Shown in pieces: positions 15,500 to 61,389 of a DNA stretch of 64,000 nt. The notes beneath the pieces are model-generated. The model worked only from the letters and a program-made list of their open reading frames with translations. It made no database searches and was not told where the DNA came from. The position numbers and the translations under genes were made by a program. Each line of letters opens with the position of its first letter. Position 1 is the stretch's first letter. The DNA is from Veillonella magna DSM 19857. Lineage in GTDB: Bacteria > Bacillota > Negativicutes > Veillonellales > Veillonellaceae. Where the stretch lies: the NCBI RefSeq assembly GCF_000428745.1, contig NZ_KE386795.1, positions 270,692 through 334,691 on the forward strand, given 5' to 3'.

Positions 15500-15717
15500 A
15501 TTGAACAATATACTAAGTGATTAAGTAACATTGGACGTATGAATGCTACTGAACCTGTAAGTAACACTGGAGGTGTAAGTAATACTGGGAGTGTGAATTC
15601 TACTGTGCATGTAAGTAGCACTAAGAGAATACATACCACCGACTATATCAATGAAGACTCACTCAGTACGTAACACTGACAGACGCAATTGGTACGGAGC
15701 GTAGAATATTGAATGAC
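15500..15717 (+). repeat. Degenerate 18-nt tandem repeat array (copy 1), pilus leader
   Basis: About twelve consecutive 18-nt units can be laid out. The best are 15554-15571, 15572-15589, 15608-15625 and 15662-15679, with a core like GTAAGTAACACTGG. The period is constant and the units are degenerate, and they run straight into the GAGCGTAGAATATTGAA box. Related arrays with 17-19 nt spacing lie ahead of the three Rpn genes at about 57.8, 58.9 and 60.15 kb. There are no unique spacers, so this is not a CRISPR array. Confidence 0.75.
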
Positions 15718-15807
15718 TAAGAAGTTATATAGGAGATGTACTGCATTCCTTAGAATTATATAGTGTCACATCGAAACAAAGCGGTGCGAACAAGAAAGGA
15801 GGTACTT
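15697..15807 (+). promoter_or_regulatory. Shared leader box upstream of the pilus operon
   Basis: GAGCGTAGAATATTGAAT then GAAGTTATATAGGAGATGTACTGCATTCCTT matches, with substitutions, the leaders at 57852, 58982 and 60201. TAGAAT could be a -10 element. GTAC and CCTT in the leader can pair with the AAGG and GTAC that make up the pilB-like gene's Shine-Dalgarno. Function is inferred only from conservation at four sites. Confidence 0.55.
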
Positions 15808-16833
15808 ATGTTTCATGTTGATATTGAGCTTGACCGCATGATACGGTCAGCAAAGGAGAAAGGAGCCAGCGATTTACATTTTGAAGCATTGGAGGATGGC
15901 CTTGTCCTACGCTTACGCATTGACGGATTACTGGAGGAAGAAGGGCGAATTCCCTTGCCGGCGTCGGAGCAACTGATTAATCGGATTAAAGTGCTTAGCG
16001 GTTTGGACATCGGTGAACGACGGATACCGCAGGACGGACGATGGCGTTGGGAAGATAAGGACATGGTTGTGGTAATGCGCGTCTCGACTATGCCCTCTAT
16101 GTACGGTGAAACTGTGGTTTGCCGCATCATGGGCAATGAAGGTTATCGGCGGAGCTTAGCTGAACTCGACATGTCAGAGGTATTGTTGGAAAAAGTGAGA
16201 GATGTACTACACAGACCGTATGGTCTTTTAGTCGTAGCAGGACCTACCGGATCCGGTAAGACATCGACCTTGTATGCGATGCTGCGCGAATTGGATATTG
16301 CCCATCAGAATTTGGTGACATTGGAAAATCCGGTGGAATCTTCTATTGAAGGGGCGGTACAGGTACAAATTAATCCTAAAGCGGGTTTGACCTTTGCCAA
16401 TGGCTTGCGCGCTGTACTACGACAAGATCCAGACACCATCATGGTCGGTGAAATTCGGGACAACGAAACAGCCGCCTTAGCCATCCGAGCTGCCCTAACA
16501 GGGCATCGAGTAGTTTCTACTATTCACACGAATACGGCGCTGGGTGTGATAGACCGATTGGTAGATATGGGGGTTGATCGCTATTTAGTAGAAGCCACAC
16601 TGATAGGCGCTTTATCGCAGCGACTTGTGCGACGTAAATGTGGCGATGGCTACAAAGGGCGCATGGCCATCTTTGAAGGTTGGATTACGCCGAGAACACA
16701 TATGGATTGGACATCACCGGAACAGTATATGGTATGCACGCTGGCCGAAGCCGCCCGCCAAGCGGTGGAGGAAGGAGACACTACTTGGGATGAATTACAT
16801 CGAGTAGGAATTACGGAGATGACGACATGCTGA
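15808..16833 (+). CDS. PilB/GspE-type assembly ATPase, compact form
   Basis: This cytoplasmic hexameric ATPase drives pilus or pseudopilus assembly. The 341-residue protein lacks the long N-terminal MshEN domain and is close to ComGA in size. It has Walker A GPTGSGKT at 145-152, an Asp box near LENPVES, Walker B-like DPDTIMVGEIRD at 207-218 and a His box TGHRVVSTIHTN. The four-cysteine zinc insertion usual in GspE/PilB is reduced to RKCGDGYKGR with one cysteine. ATG 15808 after AAAGGAGGT is chosen over a GTG at 15763. It is the first gene of a twelve-gene operon and overlaps the next by 7 nt. Confidence 0.88.
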   Translation: MFHVDIELDRMIRSAKEKGASDLHFEALEDGLVLRLRIDGLLEEEGRIPLPASEQLINRIKVLSGLDIGERRIPQDGRWRWEDKDMVVVMRVSTMPSMYGETVVCRIMGNEGYRRSLAELDMSEVLLEKVRDVLHRPYGLLVVAGPTGSGKTSTLYAMLRELDIAHQNLVTLENPVESSIEGAVQVQINPKAGLTFANGLRAVLRQDPDTIMVGEIRDNETAALAIRAALTGHRVVSTIHTNTALGVIDRLVDMGVDRYLVEATLIGALSQRLVRRKCGDGYKGRMAIFEGWITPRTHMDWTSPEQYMVCTLAEAARQAVEEGDTTWDELHRVGITEMTTC

Positions 16834-17915
16834 CATCTGTGATTGATACAGCCATTATGCGAGGGGCAACAGATATACATATAGCATGCGGTAATCCTCC
16901 GTTTTTGCGACATGGTCGCCATCTTGCACCGATTTCGTCGGAAGAACTATGTACGCCGGAAGATATGCGATGGTTGCGTTCGCAATGTGAGGCTACGTCA
17001 CATACATTACTGCCTAATATATCGGATGATGTAGTTAACGATACTAGTTCTGCACTTAACGATAATGGTGGCTTTGTACTTAGTGATAATGGTTCGTACG
17101 ATGGTGCCTTCAGCTATGAAGGACTGCGTATTCGCGTTCATTTATTCTCGGCATCCGGTAAGTTGTGTGGCACGTTGCGACTTTTATATGATCGATGTGC
17201 CGTGCTCGGTGACAGTGACGAGGATCGACTGTTAATCCGATTGTCCGAACTGAGAGAAGGGCTGATTTTACTGACGGGACCTACGGGGTCGGGAAAGTCA
17301 TTTACTTTAGCGTCCTGCTTAGAGTATATCAATCGCACAAGGGAAACACATATCATTACTTTGGAGGATCCGGTGGAATACGTTTTTACCGGTAAGCGTG
17401 CATTAATTCATCAACGTCAGTTGGGACAAGATGTAGTATCCATGGCGGAAGGGGTAAGAGACGCACTACGGGAAGATCCGGATGTCCTCATGATTGGTGA
17501 ACTCCGTGACAGAAGCACATTGGAAGCCGCGCTGCATGCGGCAGAAACAGGACATTTAGTATTTGCTACCATGCATACACAGCGTGCCGTAATGGCCATC
17601 AATCGCATGATCTCCTTGTTTCCGGCGGCACAACAGGATGAGGTACGCAGTCAGCTGTCACAAGTATTGCGCGCCGTTATATGTCAGCGTCTCATCATTA
17701 CGGATACCGCATTTTATCCGCTGCGTGATATCTTACTGAATACCAAGGCGGTAGCAAACTTGATACGACAACGTAAAGAACCGCAAATTATTTCTATTCA
17801 GGAAACACAGCGTCCTATGCAAACAATGGAAATGGCAGCCGATAAATTGCGAAGGCAAGTGGGTTCGATTCCCGAATTAGAGGAGGTGATGGAATCCATC
17901 CATGAATTGGTATAG
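16827..17915 (+). CDS. pilT: PilT-like twitching ATPase
   Basis: This is a second secretion-superfamily ATPase of 362 residues, with Walker A GPTGSGKS, Asp box LEDPVEYVF, Walker B DPDVLMIGELRD and His box TGHLVFATMHTQ. The C-terminal LLNTKAVANLIRQRK corresponds to the AIRNLIRE motif needed for PilT-driven retraction, which argues for PilT rather than a second assembly motor. The N-terminal PAS-like half carries a serine/asparagine/glycine-rich insert (about residues 65-90, two DNG-containing repeats) unlike typical PilT. It overlaps both neighbours, so the ATPases and platform protein are made together. Confidence 0.85.
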   Translation: MLTSVIDTAIMRGATDIHIACGNPPFLRHGRHLAPISSEELCTPEDMRWLRSQCEATSHTLLPNISDDVVNDTSSALNDNGGFVLSDNGSYDGAFSYEGLRIRVHLFSASGKLCGTLRLLYDRCAVLGDSDEDRLLIRLSELREGLILLTGPTGSGKSFTLASCLEYINRTRETHIITLEDPVEYVFTGKRALIHQRQLGQDVVSMAEGVRDALREDPDVLMIGELRDRSTLEAALHAAETGHLVFATMHTQRAVMAINRMISLFPAAQQDEVRSQLSQVLRAVICQRLIITDTAFYPLRDILLNTKAVANLIRQRKEPQIISIQETQRPMQTMEMAADKLRRQVGSIPELEEVMESIHELV

Positions 17916-19080
17916 CTATAAAGCCTATGATCAAGAGCATCATATCTATGAAGAAGGTATGTGGGCAGACAGTGAAGACGAGGTACGTTTTAAACTGCGC
18001 CGTAAAGAATGGTATCTCATCGGCATTACCGAGATGCATTCCGTTGCGGCTGCCCATAGGCGTTGGCGGTATAAGGACTGTATTGAATTTTCGTATCGCA
18101 TGTCATTACTTATCGAGTCGGGGTTACCGATGAGCAGTATCATGAAATTTCTCATGAACAGCGGCGGCTCTATACCCTATGATATTCTCAATGAAGCCTT
18201 ACAACGGGGTAAACTCCTTTCGGAGGCACTGCGTGATACGGGTTTTCCCCTTATCGGTTGCACCTTGCTTCAAGCCGGTGAACTGTCGGGGACGATGGGA
18301 GAATCGTTTCGGATTATTCATCGCTATTACGAACAAGAAGCATCGTGGCGACACAAGCTGATGTCGGCCTTGGCATATCCTTTGTTTTTGGCAGTATTGA
18401 TGATTATCTTCACCGGTGTAGCCGTAGGTTTTATCTTACCGGCCTTTCGCAATGTGTTTGCTTCCATGCAAGTACACCTACCACTGCTGACGCGTATGCT
18501 GTTTGCTTTCGGTGATTGGTGGCGAGTGTATTGGTGGTGGGCACTGATGCTTGCGGCTGCGCTGGGAGGCTTGCTGACTATGGCTTACCGTAAGCCGATG
18601 ATGAAACTGCGTCTACATCAATGGTGGTGGCAACATATTGTTTGCTATGAACGATGTCACGCTTTTTATTTAGCCCGTTTATGTCGTGTATGGTCGATGC
18701 TGCTCGACAGTGGGCTATCCATTACCGATGTAATGGCGCTGACAGCCAATTTATGGAATAACCGATATGCGACTGCCTGCCAACAGCAAGCGATACAGGC
18801 CATACAAAGCGGTCGCGGCATCAGTACATCTCTTAAAGAGTCCGGCCTTGGCAGTCCCTTGCTTTGGGAGATGATAGCAATCGGTGAAGAAACGGGAGAA
18901 ATGGTAGCCATGATGTCTCATTGTGCTACCTATTACCAACGCATCGTAACACAAGTAACGGCCTCGTTGGAACGTTTGATGGAACCGTTGATGGTAACCT
19001 GCATGGGGATTGGTGTAGCCATATTGGTTATCGCGGTTATGCTTCCCATGTTTCAGGCTGTTACGATGATTCATCAATGA
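17902..19080 (+). CDS. pilC: PilC/GspF inner-membrane platform protein
   Basis: This polytopic platform protein couples the ATPases to pilin polymerisation. The 392 residues contain two GspF repeats (about 57-180 and 255-380), with transmembrane segments near 157-180, 211-229 and 366-384. SLLIESGLP and ALRDTGFPLIGCTLLQAGELSG are typical of the first repeat, and WSMLLDSGLSITDVM with IAIGEETGEM of the second. The start overlaps the pilT end by 14 nt. Confidence 0.88.
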   Translation: MNWYSYKAYDQEHHIYEEGMWADSEDEVRFKLRRKEWYLIGITEMHSVAAAHRRWRYKDCIEFSYRMSLLIESGLPMSSIMKFLMNSGGSIPYDILNEALQRGKLLSEALRDTGFPLIGCTLLQAGELSGTMGESFRIIHRYYEQEASWRHKLMSALAYPLFLAVLMIIFTGVAVGFILPAFRNVFASMQVHLPLLTRMLFAFGDWWRVYWWWALMLAAALGGLLTMAYRKPMMKLRLHQWWWQHIVCYERCHAFYLARLCRVWSMLLDSGLSITDVMALTANLWNNRYATACQQQAIQAIQSGRGISTSLKESGLGSPLLWEMIAIGEETGEMVAMMSHCATYYQRIVTQVTASLERLMEPLMVTCMGIGVAILVIAVMLPMFQAVTMIHQ

Positions 19081-19129
19081 TACGCAGATTATATTTATTT
19101 TGTAATATATAGAAAGAAGGGTGCTTCAC

Positions 19130-19597
19130 ATGCACATGAGTAACACATGGAAAACATACACTAACACATTACAATCCTCGTATAAAGAATATATACATCG
19201 ATTATGCAATCGTTGGCAGCGTCGATGCACACTACGTGCAGCACATCGTCATTCGGGGGGCTTTACATTGGTTGAACTCATGGTAGTTGTCGCTGTTATT
19301 GCCATCTTGGCCGCTATGGCGATGCCCCAGTTTTTATCGGCTGCCGATAAAGCGCGGGATGCAAAGATACAAGCAGATACACAGACAATTGCCAATGCGG
19401 CGCAGCTGTATATGGTTGATAAAGCCACTACGGATGTACCGACAGTGAACGAGTTATATCAATCCGGCTATTTGTCAGAGAATGTAAAGACACCGAAAGG
19501 CGGCGAGTACACAATCACCTTGGAAGCGAATGGCAGCGGCAGTGGCAAGCATGTAGCCGTAACGGCCTCCGATGCAACGGATAGTAAGGAAGAATAA
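19130..19597 (+). CDS. Major type IV prepilin / GspG-like pseudopilin, long leader
   Basis: The class III signal GG|FTLVELMVVVAVIAILAAMA identifies a type IV pilin-like protein, with cleavage expected between Gly and Phe and the conserved Glu5. The mature part is short (about 110 residues) with a DKARDAKIQADTQTIANAAQ helix, resembling GspG or ComGC. The leader before cleavage is about 44 residues, basic and rich in His and Arg, far longer than the usual 5-25. A GTG at 19121 would add three more residues; AGAAGGG is best spaced for ATG 19130. It is probably the main fibre subunit, since it directly follows pilC. Confidence 0.85.
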   Translation: MHMSNTWKTYTNTLQSSYKEYIHRLCNRWQRRCTLRAAHRHSGGFTLVELMVVVAVIAILAAMAMPQFLSAADKARDAKIQADTQTIANAAQLYMVDKATTDVPTVNELYQSGYLSENVKTPKGGEYTITLEANGSGSGKHVAVTASDATDSKEE

Positions 19598-19629
19598 TTT
19601 TTGGCAATGGATAACATAGGAGAAGACAT

Positions 19630-20250
19630 ATGAGATTACTACTACAAGGCTACGACATCATTCTCATAGGTACGGCTATGGCTGGCGCACTCGGTTGCCT
19701 CTATCTCTTGCGTGCTTGGCGTTGCGTAGCGAGTGTTACCACCTATCATCGTATTGCTACCGCATTGGGTGGAAGCCTGTACGGCATAGTCTGCATAGCT
19801 TTACACGGTCATGCCGTATCGCCGATGATTACCGTAAGTACCATACTGTTCGGTTTAACATTACTATACGGTGCTGCCATTGATAAGCGCTACTACATCC
19901 TGCCGGATGAAGGAGCTTTGTGTATCGGTATAGTTGGTTTGCTTCGATGCTATTGGTATGATACTGCGTATCTCGACGTGGGAATTGTACTGGTCATTGT
20001 CGGTAGTGTAGGATATATGCTTCGCCGTCTCAGCCGAGGCGGTATGGGAGAAGGGGATATTAAATGGGTGTTGGCGATTTCCGTTTGGCTTACGCCGCTG
20101 GAATTGGCGTATACAATGATACTCGCATGCACGGCCGGTCTGGTATGGGGTCTGCATAACAGACGGCGCTATATTCCTTTCGGCCCATTTCTATGTACGG
20201 CCACATGGTGTGTATATTGTTTTCAAAGTGTAGTGAAAGCGTATCGGTAA
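19630..20250 (+). CDS. Prepilin leader peptidase, peptidase domain only
   Basis: This aspartic membrane protease of family A24 removes prepilin leaders. Both catalytic aspartates are visible: D85 in GAAIDKRYYILPDE and D143 in GMGEGDIKW. There are about six hydrophobic segments. The 206-residue protein lacks the N-terminal methyltransferase domain with paired CxxC motifs found in PilD, so N-methylation of the mature pilin would need another enzyme or not occur. Its stop shares one base with the next start (TAATG). Confidence 0.88.
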   Translation: MRLLLQGYDIILIGTAMAGALGCLYLLRAWRCVASVTTYHRIATALGGSLYGIVCIALHGHAVSPMITVSTILFGLTLLYGAAIDKRYYILPDEGALCIGIVGLLRCYWYDTAYLDVGIVLVIVGSVGYMLRRLSRGGMGEGDIKWVLAISVWLTPLELAYTMILACTAGLVWGLHNRRRYIPFGPFLCTATWCVYCFQSVVKAYR

Positions 20251-24273: not shown

Positions 24274-24972
24274 ATGAAACGAAATATAGTTCTTATCGGC
24301 TCCATGGGGAGCGGTAAAAGCCATTTGGGGCGAAATTTAGCGGAGGCTCGCGGATGGCAGTTTGTCGATACCGATCGTGTTCTGGAACAGCGTTATCAGT
24401 TACCTATTGCGGATATATTTAACAAATTGGGAGAACGCGCTTTCAGAACAGCCGAATTAGAGGTGTTAAAACGGGTTTGTATGTATCATGAAGCGGTCAT
24501 TTCCGTAGGCGGTAATTTTCCTATTGAAATGAAGACGCTTCGTTTTTTGCAAAAGTATTCGTATATTGTTGGCATCAGAGCAGCGGAGTATCGTATTGTA
24601 CGCCGGGTAAATCGAAAAATAGGGAAACGTCCTACTATGGATTACAATGATGTACAAGGCTTCGTGGCATCGATGATGCGATGTTGGCGACCGGTATATA
24701 AAAAATGTGATTTTGTCTTGGATACCACACACGGTCATACAATGAGCTTGGTGGATGAAGTAGAAGAGCAGCTAACAAAAGAGGCGGTTGCTTTTAAAGC
24801 ACGTAAGCAACCTAAATTGCAACTAAAGCAACCTCAATCGCAGCGAAAGCAACCTAAAGCGCCATTAAAAGGAGGGCATGCATATGAAACGAATAGCCGT
24901 ATTAACCAGCGGCGGCGATGCGCCGGGGATGAACGCAGCCGTACGAGCCGTCGTTCGCAAAGGAATATATGA
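24274..24972 (+). CDS. aroK: Shikimate kinase with repetitive C-terminal tail
   Basis: AroK phosphorylates shikimate in chorismate synthesis. Visible motifs are Walker A GSMGSGKS at 9-16, FVDTDRVLE with the metal/shikimate aspartates, an arginine in ERAFRTAE, ISVGGNFP in place of GGG, and KRPTM in the lid. The kinase domain ends near residue 170. It is followed by three 7-residue KQP repeats and then about 30 residues that overlap pfkA in another frame by 89 nt. The tail is unlikely to be catalytic. In Proteobacteria aroK follows pilMNOPQ, so its place after pilMNO-like genes is an intriguing echo. Confidence 0.85.
   Translation: MKRNIVLIGSMGSGKSHLGRNLAEARGWQFVDTDRVLEQRYQLPIADIFNKLGERAFRTAELEVLKRVCMYHEAVISVGGNFPIEMKTLRFLQKYSYIVGIRAAEYRIVRRVNRKIGKRPTMDYNDVQGFVASMMRCWRPVYKKCDFVLDTTHGHTMSLVDEVEEQLTKEAVAFKARKQPKLQLKQPQSQRKQPKAPLKGGHAYETNSRINQRRRCAGDERSRTSRRSQRNI
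24805..24867 (+). repeat. Three 21-nt repeats in the aroK tail
   Basis: Three in-frame 21-nt units (24805, 24826, 24847) begin AAGCAACCT and encode KQPKLQL, KQPQSQR and KQPKAPL. The last abuts the AAGGAGGG used by pfkA. Confidence 0.85.
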
Positions 24973-38308: not shown

Positions 38309-38406
38309 GTGTGATAGCTCAACACGTAATTATTTATAAAAGTGTGATAAAGTAACACATAACAATATATAAAAGTGTGATAAATTTCACGAAATTATAT
38401 ATAAAA
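38309..38406 (+). repeat. Three 33-bp tandem repeats with TGTGA palindromes
   Basis: Units start at 38309, 38342 and 38375 with GTGTGATA and end in TATAAAA; a partial fourth (ATGTGA) touches the ribosome-binding site. Each carries an imperfect palindrome, for example TGTGATAAAGTAACACA and TGTGATAAATTTCACG. Their location from the transcription start to the RBS suggests an operator array, possibly autoregulatory. Confidence 0.7.
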
Positions 38407-38422
38407 ATGTGAGGAGGCAGAG

Positions 38423-57778: not shown

Positions 57779-57870
57779 AGCACGTAGTAGCACTGGAAGC
57801 ACGTTGTAGTACCGGGAGTGCGTAATACTACTGAGAACATATATTAGCACTGAGCGTAGAATAATGAACA
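57779..57870 (+). repeat. 18-19 nt tandem repeat array, copy 2 (Rpn1 leader)
   Basis: There are four to five units of 18-19 nt (AGCACGTAGTAGCACTGG and relatives), ending in GAGCGTAGAATAATGAA at 57852. It has the same design as the pilus leader at 15500. The 130 nt between the CACCGCC block and this array show nothing recognisable. Confidence 0.65.
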
Positions 57871-57891
57871 GCTGAGAAGTTAGACAGGAAA

Positions 57892-57926
57892 GCCGTACTC
57901 CTTCCTCGTATTATTACGGCAAGGAG
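57892..57926 (+). promoter_or_regulatory. SD-sequestering leader of Rpn1
   Basis: GCCGTA (57892-57897) pairs with TACGGC (57915-57920), and CTCCTT (57898-57903) pairs with AAGGAG (57921-57926), the Shine-Dalgarno. The arms interleave, so they form either a pseudoknot or a two-state switch. The identical sequence lies at 59022-59056. In the third copy (about 60251) CCTCCT pairs with AGGAGG instead, so masking is kept despite sequence change. Confidence 0.55.
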
Positions 57927-57933
57927 GGATTTT

Positions 57934-58203
57934 ATGATTACCAAACAACTTTCTTTTAAAGCGGATAGCATTCTATCTGATACGATAGACACAACATCGA
58001 ATACAACAACTATACCCGCAGATGAAGCTACCAACACTAATACCCATTTTTCTTACGCGTCACCTACTGGATCGTTATTAGTCCACGAAGATGTAATCGA
58101 TTACGAAACGCAATTAGCCTTGCGCGAGAAATGGAAGAACCTAACCATTACGGATAATTTTCTTTTTGAAAAAGTGATGCGCAACAAACGGGTTTACGCA
58201 TAG
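57934..58203 (+). pseudogene. Rpn-family nuclease, N-terminal fragment (Rpn1)
   Basis: The 89 codons open MITKQLSFKADSILSDTID, then a low-complexity Thr/Asn/Ala linker, then KWKNLTITDNFLFEKVMRNK, the conserved start of Rpn (RpnA-E, PD-(D/E)XK transposase-like) proteins. The frame stops where the family would continue into the nuclease core. The core is absent and two hairpin elements lie in its place. The remainder of the C-terminus appears at 58364-58732. Confidence 0.78.
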
Positions 58204-58205
58204 AA

Positions 58206-58268
58206 AGTAGACTATCAGTAACGAAAGCTCGGTCTATCGAAGAGCATTTCTTATACTGATAGTCTACT
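58206..58268 (+). repeat. Hairpin-family element E2 (forward)
   Basis: Outer perfect stem of 15 bp: AGTAGACTATCAGTA with TACTGATAGTCTACT. Inner stem GAAA-GCTC with GAGC-a-TTTC (one bulged A), loop GGTCTATCGAA. A pyrimidine tract CTCTTTTCTC follows. Confidence 0.88.
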
Positions 58269-58294
58269 CTCTTTTCTCTCCCTCCAGGGGAAAG

Positions 58295-58363
58295 AAGCGA
58301 TGCCCATATATCGCAAGAGTGTCATTCGCAAGACCTGACCTCTGAGATATATGGACATCGCTT
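58295..58363 (-). repeat. Hairpin-family element E3 (reverse)
   Basis: Outer stem of 17 bp with one mismatch: AAGCGATGCCCATATAT with ATATATGGACATCGCTT. Inner AGAG-t-GTCA with TGAC-CTCT, loop TTCGCAAGACC, the reverse complement of the forward loop type. The bulge lies on the opposite arm, as expected for the reverse orientation. E2 and E3 are separated by a small CTTTTCTCTCCC/GGGGAAAGAAG hairpin. Confidence 0.88.
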
Positions 58364-58732
58364 GTAAAAAATCTGTTTTATCTTTTACAATATATACATA
58401 CCCATGTAGTTCATGGTGACTTTGTAAAAGAAATTGATGAAGAATTAACTAATATAAAATTCAGTGAAACACAGGAGGTGGCCTATATGACCTACGAAAT
58501 GGAATTACTGGTGCGACATAATGATGGCATTCGTGAAGGAATCGCCATCGGACGTAAAGAAGGATTGAATCAAGGGCTAAAACAGGGGCAAGCCGTGGGC
58601 AGAAAATTTCAAGCACAAAAAATGGCCTTATCCATGCTAGAGGACAAGGCATCCATACCGTTGATTAGTAAGTATACCGGCTTAAACGAACAAGAAATTC
58701 TCAACCTCGCCAAAGAGCATAATCTGTTATAA
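58364..58732 (+). pseudogene. Rpn-family C-terminal fragment (Rpn1)
   Basis: The frame reads HGDFVKEIDEELTNIKFSE, then a helical region MTYEMELLVRHNDGIREGIA, IGRKEGLNQGLKQGQAVGRK repeats, and the C-terminal MALSMLEDKASIPLISKYTG/LNEQEILNLA helix pair. This matches the region after the nuclease core in Rpn proteins. A GTG at 58478 (after CAGGAGG) could start an 84-residue product, so the piece might still be translated as a small protein. Confidence 0.72.
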
Positions 58733-58930: not shown

Positions 58931-59000
58931 TTGTATTAACACTGAGAGCATGTATTAACACCGGGAGCATATATTAGCACTGAGCATAGAATAATGAACA
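58931..59000 (+). repeat. 17-19 nt tandem repeat array, copy 3 (Rpn2 leader)
   Basis: Three units of 17-19 nt (GTATTAACACTGAGAGCAT, GTATTAACACCGGGAGCAT, ATATTAGCACTGAGCAT) run into AGAATAATGAA at 58988. Confidence 0.65.
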
Positions 59001-59021
59001 GTCAAGAAGTTGGATAGGAAA

Positions 59022-59188
59022 GCCGTACTCCTTCCTCGTATTATTACGGCAAGGAGGGATTTTATGATTACCAAACAATTTACCAGGAAGGCTAATGGTA
59101 TTGCGTCTAATACAATAGACACAAATGCAGATGCAAGATACAATAATAACAAAGGAAGTGTATTGAATGAACACGGCGAAATATAAAT
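59022..59188 (+). promoter_or_regulatory. SD-masking leader and short upstream frame of Rpn2
   Basis: The leader 59022-59056 is identical to that of Rpn1. It is followed by ATG 59064, whose frame (MITKQFTRKANGIASNTIDT and on) stops after 41 codons at 59188, overlapping the actual Rpn2 start at 59167. This is the decayed original N-terminus, or by chance an upstream open reading frame. Confidence 0.5.
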
Positions 59189-59484
59189 TGCCAACTACAA
59201 AAGATTGGCATTATAGTAGGGAGTTAGATGTATCACGATTTTTAGTACATGATAAAACAAAGCTATACAATGCTTCGCAGTATCATATGCCAAAGTGGCA
59301 GGATGCAACGATTACTGAAAACTTTTTGTTCGAAAAAGTCATGCATAACAAACGAATTTGTAAGCGGCTCATCGAAAAAATTTTAGGCATTACCATTCAG
59401 TCTATCGAGTTTCCTGAAGCAGAAAAATCCATAACTATTCGTCGTGACAGTAAAAGCGTTCGTCTGGATGTATACGTAATATAA
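59167..59484 (+). pseudogene. Rpn-family nuclease, N-terminal fragment (Rpn2)
   Basis: The 105 codons include KWQDATITENFLFEKVMHNK, then CKRLIEKILGITIQSIEFPE and SVRLDVYVI, ending exactly where Rpn proteins place their first catalytic strand (LDVYV followed by a QxK-containing region). ATG 59167 follows AAAGGAAG. The catalytic core is missing and is replaced by hairpins E4 and E5. The C-terminal half resumes at about 59650. Confidence 0.8.
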
Positions 59485-59487
59485 AGT

Positions 59488-59557
59488 AGAGTCCTGTATA
59501 TAGGCATCACAAGTCAGGTCTAGCGAATGACGTTGTTCAACCTATATACAGGACTCT
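59488..59557 (+). repeat. Hairpin-family element E4 (forward)
   Basis: Outer perfect 17-bp stem AGAGTCCTGTATATAGG with CCTATATACAGGACTCT. Inner CAA-GTCA with TGAC-g-TTG (bulged G), loop GGTCTAGCGAA. CTTCTCC follows. Confidence 0.9.
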
Positions 59558-59579
59558 CTTCTCCCCGGTACTGGGAAAG

Positions 59580-59646
59580 AGGGATTCATAGATGCCGTAG
59601 ATGTGTCATTCGTAAGACCTGACCAGCGAGACATCTATGAATCCCT
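59580..59646 (-). repeat. Hairpin-family element E5 (reverse)
   Basis: Outer perfect 15-bp stem AGGGATTCATAGATG with CATCTATGAATCCCT. Inner TG-t-GTCA with TGAC-CA, loop TTCGTAAGACC. It is paired with E4 across a CTTCTCCCC/GGGAAAGAGG linker hairpin. Confidence 0.9.
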
Positions 59647-59649
59647 CGG

Positions 59650-59988
59650 AACGTTTTTTATTTCTTACAATACATTAACGGTCATGCACCACAAGGAAAG
59701 TTTGTCAATGAAATTGATACCGAAGTGGGCAAAGTAAAAGAAAGCAAAGAAATGGAGAAATCATATATGACATACGCAATGGAAATCGAAAGACACAGAC
59801 GAGAAGCGAAAAATATCGGAATCGCCATTGGACGCGAAGAGGGATTAGCTGCCGGTCGTAAAGAAAATTCACAAAAAATTGCCTTATCCATGCTTGAGGA
59901 CAAAGCATCCATAGCTTTGATTAGTAAATACACCGGCTTAACCGAACAAGAGCTCCATGCTCTCGCCAAAGAACATCATTTACTGTAA
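59650..59988 (+). pseudogene. Rpn-family C-terminal fragment (Rpn2)
   Basis: The frame reads YINGHAPQGKFVNEIDTEVG, KVKESKEMEKSYMTYAMEIE, IGIAIGREEGLAAGRKENSQ and ALSMLEDKASIALISKYTGL before TAA. The resumption point (FLQYINGH) is the same as in Rpn1, so both genes lost the same central segment. Last residues KEHHLL match KEHNLL of Rpn1. Confidence 0.75.
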
Positions 59989-60145: not shown

Positions 60146-60220
60146 CTGAAAGCATTAACTCTTGCTGAAAGAATTAACACTCACTGAAAGCATTAACACT
60201 GAGCGTAGAATAATGAATAG
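60146..60220 (+). repeat. 19-nt tandem repeat array, copy 4 (Rpn3 leader)
   Basis: Three 19-nt units CTGAAAGCATTAACTCTTG, CTGAAAGAATTAACACTCA, CTGAAAGCATTAACACTGA run into GCGTAGAATAATGAATAG. A masked ribosome-binding site follows (CCTCCT at 60251 with AGGAGG at 60272). Confidence 0.68.
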
Positions 60221-60283
60221 TTCAAAAATTAAATAGGACAACAATACTTCCTCCTCGTGTTTTTAATAGTAAGGAGGGATTTT

Positions 60284-60416
60284 ATGATTACCAAACGACT
60301 TTCTTTTAAAGCGGATAGCATTCTATCTGATACGATAGACATAACATCGAATACAACAACTACACCCGCAGATGAAGCAACCAACATCGATACTCATTTT
60401 TCTTACACACGCTCTG
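60284..60416 (+). pseudogene. Rpn-family N-terminal fragment cut by IS256 (Rpn3)
   Basis: MITKRLSFKADSILSDTIDI and the Thr/Ala linker match Rpn1 almost exactly (also at DNA level), up to THFSYTR, where IS256 copy 2 begins at 60417. Nothing of the rest of the gene is found after the element. Confidence 0.78.
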
Positions 60417-61389
60417 GGGAGTGTAAAATAGTTTGTGTAAACAGGTTAATATACTAGGCTCAATTATTCCCCTCATAATTGAGAAAACACATAGCAAGGA
60501 TGGTACTCATGACAAAACGTAAAGAAACTATACTAACTCCCGGTGAAAAATCGCTCAGCAAATTCTTGATAATTACGATCTAAAAAATACCCAGGATGTA
60601 CAAGATGCTTTAAAACAGGTGTTTGGCCCTATTTTTGAAGCTATACTAAAAGGTGAAATGCAAAACAAAGTGCTGGCCATGTATGCGCGCGGGATGAGCC
60701 AGCGTGACATTGCTGCAACCATTGAGAAGATATGTATGGATTCCAGCTCTCTCATGAACAAATTTCGAATATTACCGACTGCGTTATGGAAGAAGTAGAC
60801 CGCTGGCGTACGCGACCATTAAAGCCGTTTTATCCGTTTTCCTTCGTAGACTGCATCTATGTATCTATGCGGACAGAACGTGGCGTTCACCAGGTCGCTG
60901 TTTATGTGATGCTTGCTTACGACACCAATGGATATAAAGATGTATTAGGTCTTTGGATTAACGAAACGGAAAGCAAGCATGTATGGCGCTGTAAATGTGG
61001 AAGAAGCACGACGTGCGTTCGAAAAGTAAAAAAAGACTGGCAGGAGTATCCTGGTGCCATCGCTGTTTGGGAAAACAACTTTCAACACGTGGAACAGCTC
61101 TTCCACTATGGCAGTGCAGTACGAAAGGCAATGTACACGACCAACGCCATTGAAAGCGTAAATGCCAGTTTCCGCAAAGTCACGAAGAAAGGTTCCTTCC
61201 CTAACGAGGATGCTATTTTTAAAATTTTCTATCTTCGTATTCAGGAACTCTATAAGAAATGGACTTCACATCGTCTGGCAAACTGGGCAATGATCCGTAA
61301 CCAGCTGCTTATTGATGAACGGCTGGGACCTTTGATGGAAAAGTATGACAAAGATTTTTAAGAGTTTACACAAAATATTTGACATGCCC
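60417..61389 (+). mobile_element. IS256-family element, copy 2 (internally deleted)
   Basis: The element is 973 bp with the same termini as copy 1 (GGGAGTGTAAAATAG left, ATGCCC right) but lacks about 394 bp in two internal deletions. One lies between copies of AGCATGTATGG, which occurs twice in copy 1 about 210 bp apart; the other joins GCAAAA to CAAAGTGC over a 4-nt match. No clear 8-bp target duplication. Confidence 0.85.
60509..61361 (+). pseudogene. Defective IS256 transposase (copy 2)
   Basis: The reading frame is broken by loss of one A near 60549, by a two-base change near 60725 and by the two deletions. The segment with the second catalytic aspartate (SIDGVSGLEEG in copy 1) is gone, so it cannot be an active transposase. 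The C-terminal half is open from 60732 to 61361. Confidence 0.85.

Follow-up and report, generated by a model that had tools for sequence, protein, structure and literature searches.

In Bacillus subtilis, competence is activated by ComK, whose targets are its own gene and the late com genes. The ComK boxes, which function with sigma-A, differ from the operators of Veillonella magna described here, and no sequence relation is claimed between ComK and the multi-HTH regulator discussed below. In Listeria monocytogenes, comG, comEABC and coiA are driven by sigma-H (PMC4754846), and competence genes of Lactobacillus sakei are also reported to be activated by this sigma factor (PMC3364868). The proposed V. 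magna system resembles that of Listeria in sigma factor class, promoter type and targets (a pilus/pseudopilus operon and comEA), whereas the part of the Listeria report consulted describes neither an operator array nor a multi-HTH regulator, and does not include mobile nuclease genes. In Sporomusa, a Negativicute, SigH promoters mapped by transcription start sites consist of AGGA, a 17–18-nt spacer and GAAT (PMC12456013). In V. parvula, deletion of a pilB-pilT-pilC-pilin-peptidase locus abolished transformation (PMC5397411); regulation was not the topic of that study, and a word search of its text for promoter, sigma factor and comEA gave no hits. The CRISPR-repeat-binding protein Cbp1 of Sulfolobales (PMC10883916) provides a parallel at the protein level, since its tandem HTH domains, derived from duplication, are aligned along a repeated DNA site; however, Cbp1 is archaeal, has three HTH domains and binds CRISPR arrays. 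Finally, Rpn (YhgA-like) nucleases form the RpnL/RpnS toxin-antitoxin pairs (PMC5350276, PMC10327210). Competence is not mentioned in PMC10327210, and no competence-type promoter has been reported for Rpn in the literature searched.

The DNA analyzed here (the window) is a 64-kb stretch of the V. magna DSM 19857 genome. In a preliminary description, four of its leaders, one preceding a pilus operon and three preceding Rpn genes, were reported to share a degenerate tandem repeat, a conserved box and a GAAGTT...AGGA stretch. We propose, with a probability of roughly 0.68, that this leader is a competence-regulon promoter, composed of an operator array and a SigH-type core, which would most likely be read by a multi-HTH protein and would have been captured by Rpn genes. 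The competence theme, the reading of AGGA as a SigH-type -35 and the membership of comEA were absent from the preliminary description.

The pilus operon (forward strand) begins with pilB, encoding a T2SSE traffic ATPase (15808–16833; PF00437, E 5.5e-96), followed by genes for a PilT-like ATPase, PilC, a prepilin and a prepilin peptidase (16827–20250; PF00437, PF00482, PF07963 and PF01478). It corresponds to the experimentally proven competence locus of V. parvula. Upstream, on the same strand, the 18-nt register and the autocorrelation at period 18 define a distal operator array of six tandem 18-nt units resembling AACACTGGAGGTGTAAGT (15527–15634). A degenerate gap separates this array from two proximal units (CACTGACAG... 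and GGTACGGAGCG, starting at 15672 and 15691), which were recognized by alignment with the Rpn leaders and lead into the box (15672–15701). The four sites described previously stand, but the repeat does not run directly into the box at pilB. The box itself (TAGAATATTGAA with one mismatch; 15702–15713) occupies the position of a last, diverged operator unit, as judged by the register in sister species. It is followed by AGGA (15731–15734), the proposed SigH-type -35, in register with the pilB and comEA promoters of the family, and, 18 nt further, by GAATTA (15753–15758), the proposed -10, assigned by its position and by the spacing known from Sporomusa (17–18 nt; PMC12456013).

The three Rpn leaders, also on the forward strand, have a simpler layout, in which 19-nt operator-like repeats detected by periodicity (57789–57856, 58938–58986 and 60146–60205) are followed by segments containing the box, AGGA, an 18-nt spacer and a hexamer at the -10 position. 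In leader 1 this segment (57857–57913; defined by alignment) contains AGGA at 57886–57889 and GTATTA at 57908–57913; in leader 2 (58987–59043) these motifs are found at 59016–59019 and 59038–59043, and in leader 3 (60206–60262) AGGA (60235–60238) is followed by GTGTTT (60257–60262). Across the Rpn leaders, GTATTA, GTGTTT or GTACTT lies 18 nt from AGGA, where pilB has GAATTA. The -10 is therefore considered imperfect, with GTAT, GTGT or GTAC in place of GAAT at the expected position.

The leaders previously assigned to three Rpn genes were recovered as such, but the genes behind them are broken remnants, whose nuclease core, as judged from the translations, has been lost or has given way to palindromic DNA. 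Comparison with an intact 342-aa copy showed that fragment 1 (57934–58203, forward strand; 89 aa) represents only the N-terminal part. Fragment 2 (59167–59484, forward strand; 105 aa) is likewise N-terminal, and RpnS-like C-terminal frames persist behind both (58487–58732 and 59767–59988, respectively). The third reading frame (60284–60457, forward strand; 57 aa) lacks a nuclease domain, and a Mutator-type transposase gene is located downstream of it (60732). The intact copy (C1:199893-200732) matches TIGR01784 with 113.9 bits (curated cut-off 52.1) as well as PF12784, and contains an internal ATG before its C-terminal domain, features which link it to the RpnL/RpnS systems. A short leader frame (MITKQF...GVY) lies ahead of it, and the overlap between the TGA stop codon of this frame and the Rpn ATG suggests translational coupling. 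In several copies (58204–58400, 59485–59640 and others) two imperfect palindromes with GTCAGGTC/GACCTGAC stand in place of the core; these begin at an identical codon in different copies and resemble either a small palindromic element or the scar of a recurrent deletion.

Alignment of the pilB leader with the three Rpn leaders revealed a column-by-column match of the last part of the repeats, the box, GAAGTT and AGGA. Circularity was avoided by training a matrix on eight Rpn leaders only, with the pilB site left out; this site (15668) scored 33.2 bits, compared with -4.1 bits for the best score in 30 randomized (Markov) 64-kb windows. The repeat period is 19 in the three Rpn leaders (autocorrelation 0.58–0.64) and 18 in the pilB leader (0.43), values equaled in 0/300 shuffles in either case. 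The common element claimed earlier was thus confirmed, and we regard it as virtually certain. As a stand-alone motif, the 12-nt box is found in the window at chance frequency (12 matches with up to two mismatches, 13.0 expected); the significance is carried by the whole element of approx. 64 nt. Two other tandem repeats of the window (24801–24862 and 38309–38412; 21 nt ×3 and 33 nt ×3, respectively) are unrelated to the leader.

Analysis of the 2.2-Mb genome revealed eight perfect boxes, all within Rpn-type leaders. A model of the leader (R1) detected ten strong sites, comprising pilB and nine Rpn-type leaders, two of which extend to contig ends. The next R1 site is weak, yet it lies exactly 5′ of a gene encoding SLBB and helix-hairpin-helix domains, i.e. 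comEA, the DNA-uptake receptor gene. The comEA element has the layout CACTGAGCGTG-N8-CACCAGTAGAA-AAGTTATATAGGAG, and each of the six perfect ARAAGTTANAYAGGA matches belongs to the Rpn/pilB/comEA set. Two near matches (AGGA-box) outside this set, C1:206565 and C25:4743, were judged to be due to chance. R1 and a second model, R2 (built from the pilB elements and V. magna comEA), gave no further matches in this genome, in which comEC, dprA and comF were not located individually; when 39 related genomes were scanned with R1, only weak, probably chance matches were found outside V. magna.

Conservation was examined in six sister species, including V. seminalis, V. ratti, V. intestinalis and V. sp. 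KGMB01456. All six carry a compact element upstream of pilB, CACTGTCAGTG-N8-TACCATTGGTG-TGATTTAGCAGGAGTTA, of the same layout as that of V. magna comEA, in which two 11-bp inverted repeats 19 bp apart are followed by AGGA. R2 recovered comEA in every sister species, and the element therefore precedes DNA-uptake genes (the pilB operon and comEA) in V. magna and all six relatives. The model also recovered a multi-site array 5′ of a gene for a 247-aa protein; this array or similar sites precede that gene, referred to here as the multi-HTH gene, in 6/6 sister species. A further copy was found in V. sp. KGMB01456 (C5:107184), approx. 200 nt before a Gp49-like toxin/HTH antitoxin-like pair. This phylogenetic footprint, with the common layout at pilB and comEA and the related sites at the multi-HTH gene, lends good support to the earlier suggestion of a common regulator-binding array giving coordinated control, and very probably defines a competence regulon.

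The core promoter could be followed across the family. The motif AGG[AG]NTT-N13..15-GAA[ATC] (mostly N14) was found upstream of pilB in 23 of 28 Veillonellaceae genomes (0.48 expected) and upstream of comEA in 19 of 28 (0.31 expected); since these genomes are related, the counts do not represent 28 independent events. The motif was found in none of the control sequences (0/312 window tiles and 0/27 upstream regions of the regulator gene). In short form it reads AGGA-N17/18-GAAT, the family counts allowing for a relaxed -10 (GAAW), and it matches the SigH promoters mapped in Sporomusa. The pilB promoter of V. magna (AGGA-N18-GAATTA) conforms to this SigH type; the -10 of V. magna comEA is GAAC, not GAAT. 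SigH is encoded in V. magna (C1:141798; TIGR02859, 302.8 bits, cut-off 294.8) and exceeds the curated cut-off in 26/28 genomes of the family. A SigH-type core is likely at pilB and comEA; at the Rpn leaders, the balance tips only slightly towards such a core. The C/T-rich stretch of these leaders, formerly read as masking the ribosome-binding site, probably separates the -35 from the -10 as a spacer, which would leave it untranscribed from the proposed promoter.

The candidate regulator is a single-copy protein consisting of five HTH repeats (V. magna gene C3:52822-53574), with internal similarity scores of up to 77, compared with 22 in shuffles. Its gene is present once per genome in 28/28 Veillonellaceae and in 0/272 other genomes of the class (E 1e-15). 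The best NCBIfam match, NF040595 (Cbp1), is below the cut-off (56.2 versus 140 bits), and the protein is not a member of that family; 14 regulators, once aligned, proved too divergent to be used in a contig scan. The regulator gene and its presumed targets share operator words, namely GCACCAATGGTATGAGTC with comEA in V. seminalis, ACACTCCTACCAGT with pilB in g2 and CTATTGGTCAC with comEA in g4. These words vary by genus, with a core like ACCA[AG]T being kept, and this covariation is the main argument that the sites would be read by the multi-HTH protein or, failing that, by a single common factor. No operator resembling that of the regulator gene was found in the g4 pilB promoter, and the V. 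magna regulator gene has no clear array, nor any significant upstream word in common with pilB or comEA. The sites of the sister species lie just 5′ of the -35 of a sigma-A-like regulator promoter (TTGCTC-N17-TATAAT), a position which fits activation better than repression. We lean towards the multi-HTH protein as the binder of the operators and, with similar reserve, towards its being an activator. The gene is divergent from one resembling a site-2-protease-like membrane peptidase (as read by eye), and the array could serve both.

It is also conceivable, although unlikely, that the competence operators are bound by a different transcription factor and that the multi-HTH gene is merely another target. 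Sites 5′ of a gene mark a target and not necessarily the binder, and the missing array in V. magna is in line with this; the joint change of operator words at regulator and target across genera, and a protein that consists of HTH repeats only, and would fit a repeated site, argue for the multi-HTH protein itself. Regulator genes, moreover, often bear the site of their own regulon because they are autoregulated. An explanation of similarly low probability concerns the Rpn leaders alone, which could be a by-product of paralogues copying their upstream DNA after a single ancestral capture from pilB, without any co-regulation at present. The nine leaders are indeed alike also 3′ of the start, many Rpn copies are broken and their -10 has drifted; however, the array, AGGA and spacing have been kept while the genes decay, the Rpn copies of contig C28 lack the leader and stand instead behind a sigma-A-like TTGCAA-N17-TACAAT, and a different TA-like pair, in V. 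sp. KGMB01456, has the element too. Since this pair also carries it, accessory genes may have captured the competence switch more than once.

Two further explanations have still lower probabilities. Transcription could begin in or before the box, with a hairpin masking the ribosome-binding site, which the preliminary description called masked. CTCCTT is able to pair with AAGGAG in the Rpn leaders, and TAGAAT resembles a sigma-A -10, but this hexamer was not found at comEA or in the sister-species elements. The predicted folding of the four leaders is not significantly better than that of shuffles (z = -1.6, -1.7, +0.3 and -0.6), the pairing C/T stretch sits between the proposed -35 and -10, and an Rfam search of the window at gathering scores found no RNA leader or riboswitch; such a leader is thus improbable. 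Least probable of all is the mobile promoter cassette, or insertion element, placed before pilB and the Rpn genes. Despite the mobility of Rpn genes and the nearby transposase, pilB and comEA have retained their elements at the same position across the genus by vertical descent, and insertion before pilB is disfavored because the position of its element is unchanged in all sister species. Moreover, no copy of the leader was found in phage, plasmid and viral-contig collections. All that survives of the cassette idea is that the Rpn family carries its promoter along.

Under the competence-promoter reading, a SigH-type core (AGGA, 17–18 nt, GAAT) preceded by tandem 18–20-bp operator units would control the pilB pilus operon, comEA and the Rpn nuclease/antitoxin family of V. 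magna. The HTH repeats of the regulator would lie along the operator array, where it would more likely activate than repress. Autoregulation is suggested for the sister species, because related sites precede the regulator's own gene. In the V. magna lineage, the only one of the seven species examined to have Rpn genes (TIGR01784), the array would have multiplied at pilB and the promoter would have been taken over by Rpn, whose expression would therefore be tied to DNA import; whether Rpn genes are in fact expressed in competence appears evenly balanced. A more tentative possibility is that Veillonellaceae have a competence master regulator of their own, a five-to-six-HTH protein acting with sigma-H on tandem 18–20-bp operators, and that its promoter has repeatedly been captured by selfish or defensive nuclease/TA genes (Rpn, and Gp49/HTH in a sister species), which would then be produced at the very moment of foreign DNA entry.

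A competence switch in Veillonella or other diderm Firmicutes appears to be undescribed in the literature searched. The present analysis puts forward a specific sigma factor, an operator, a candidate regulator and a set of targets, all testable in a transformable species, and points to a physiological context in which Rpn nucleases may act, namely expression alongside DNA uptake.
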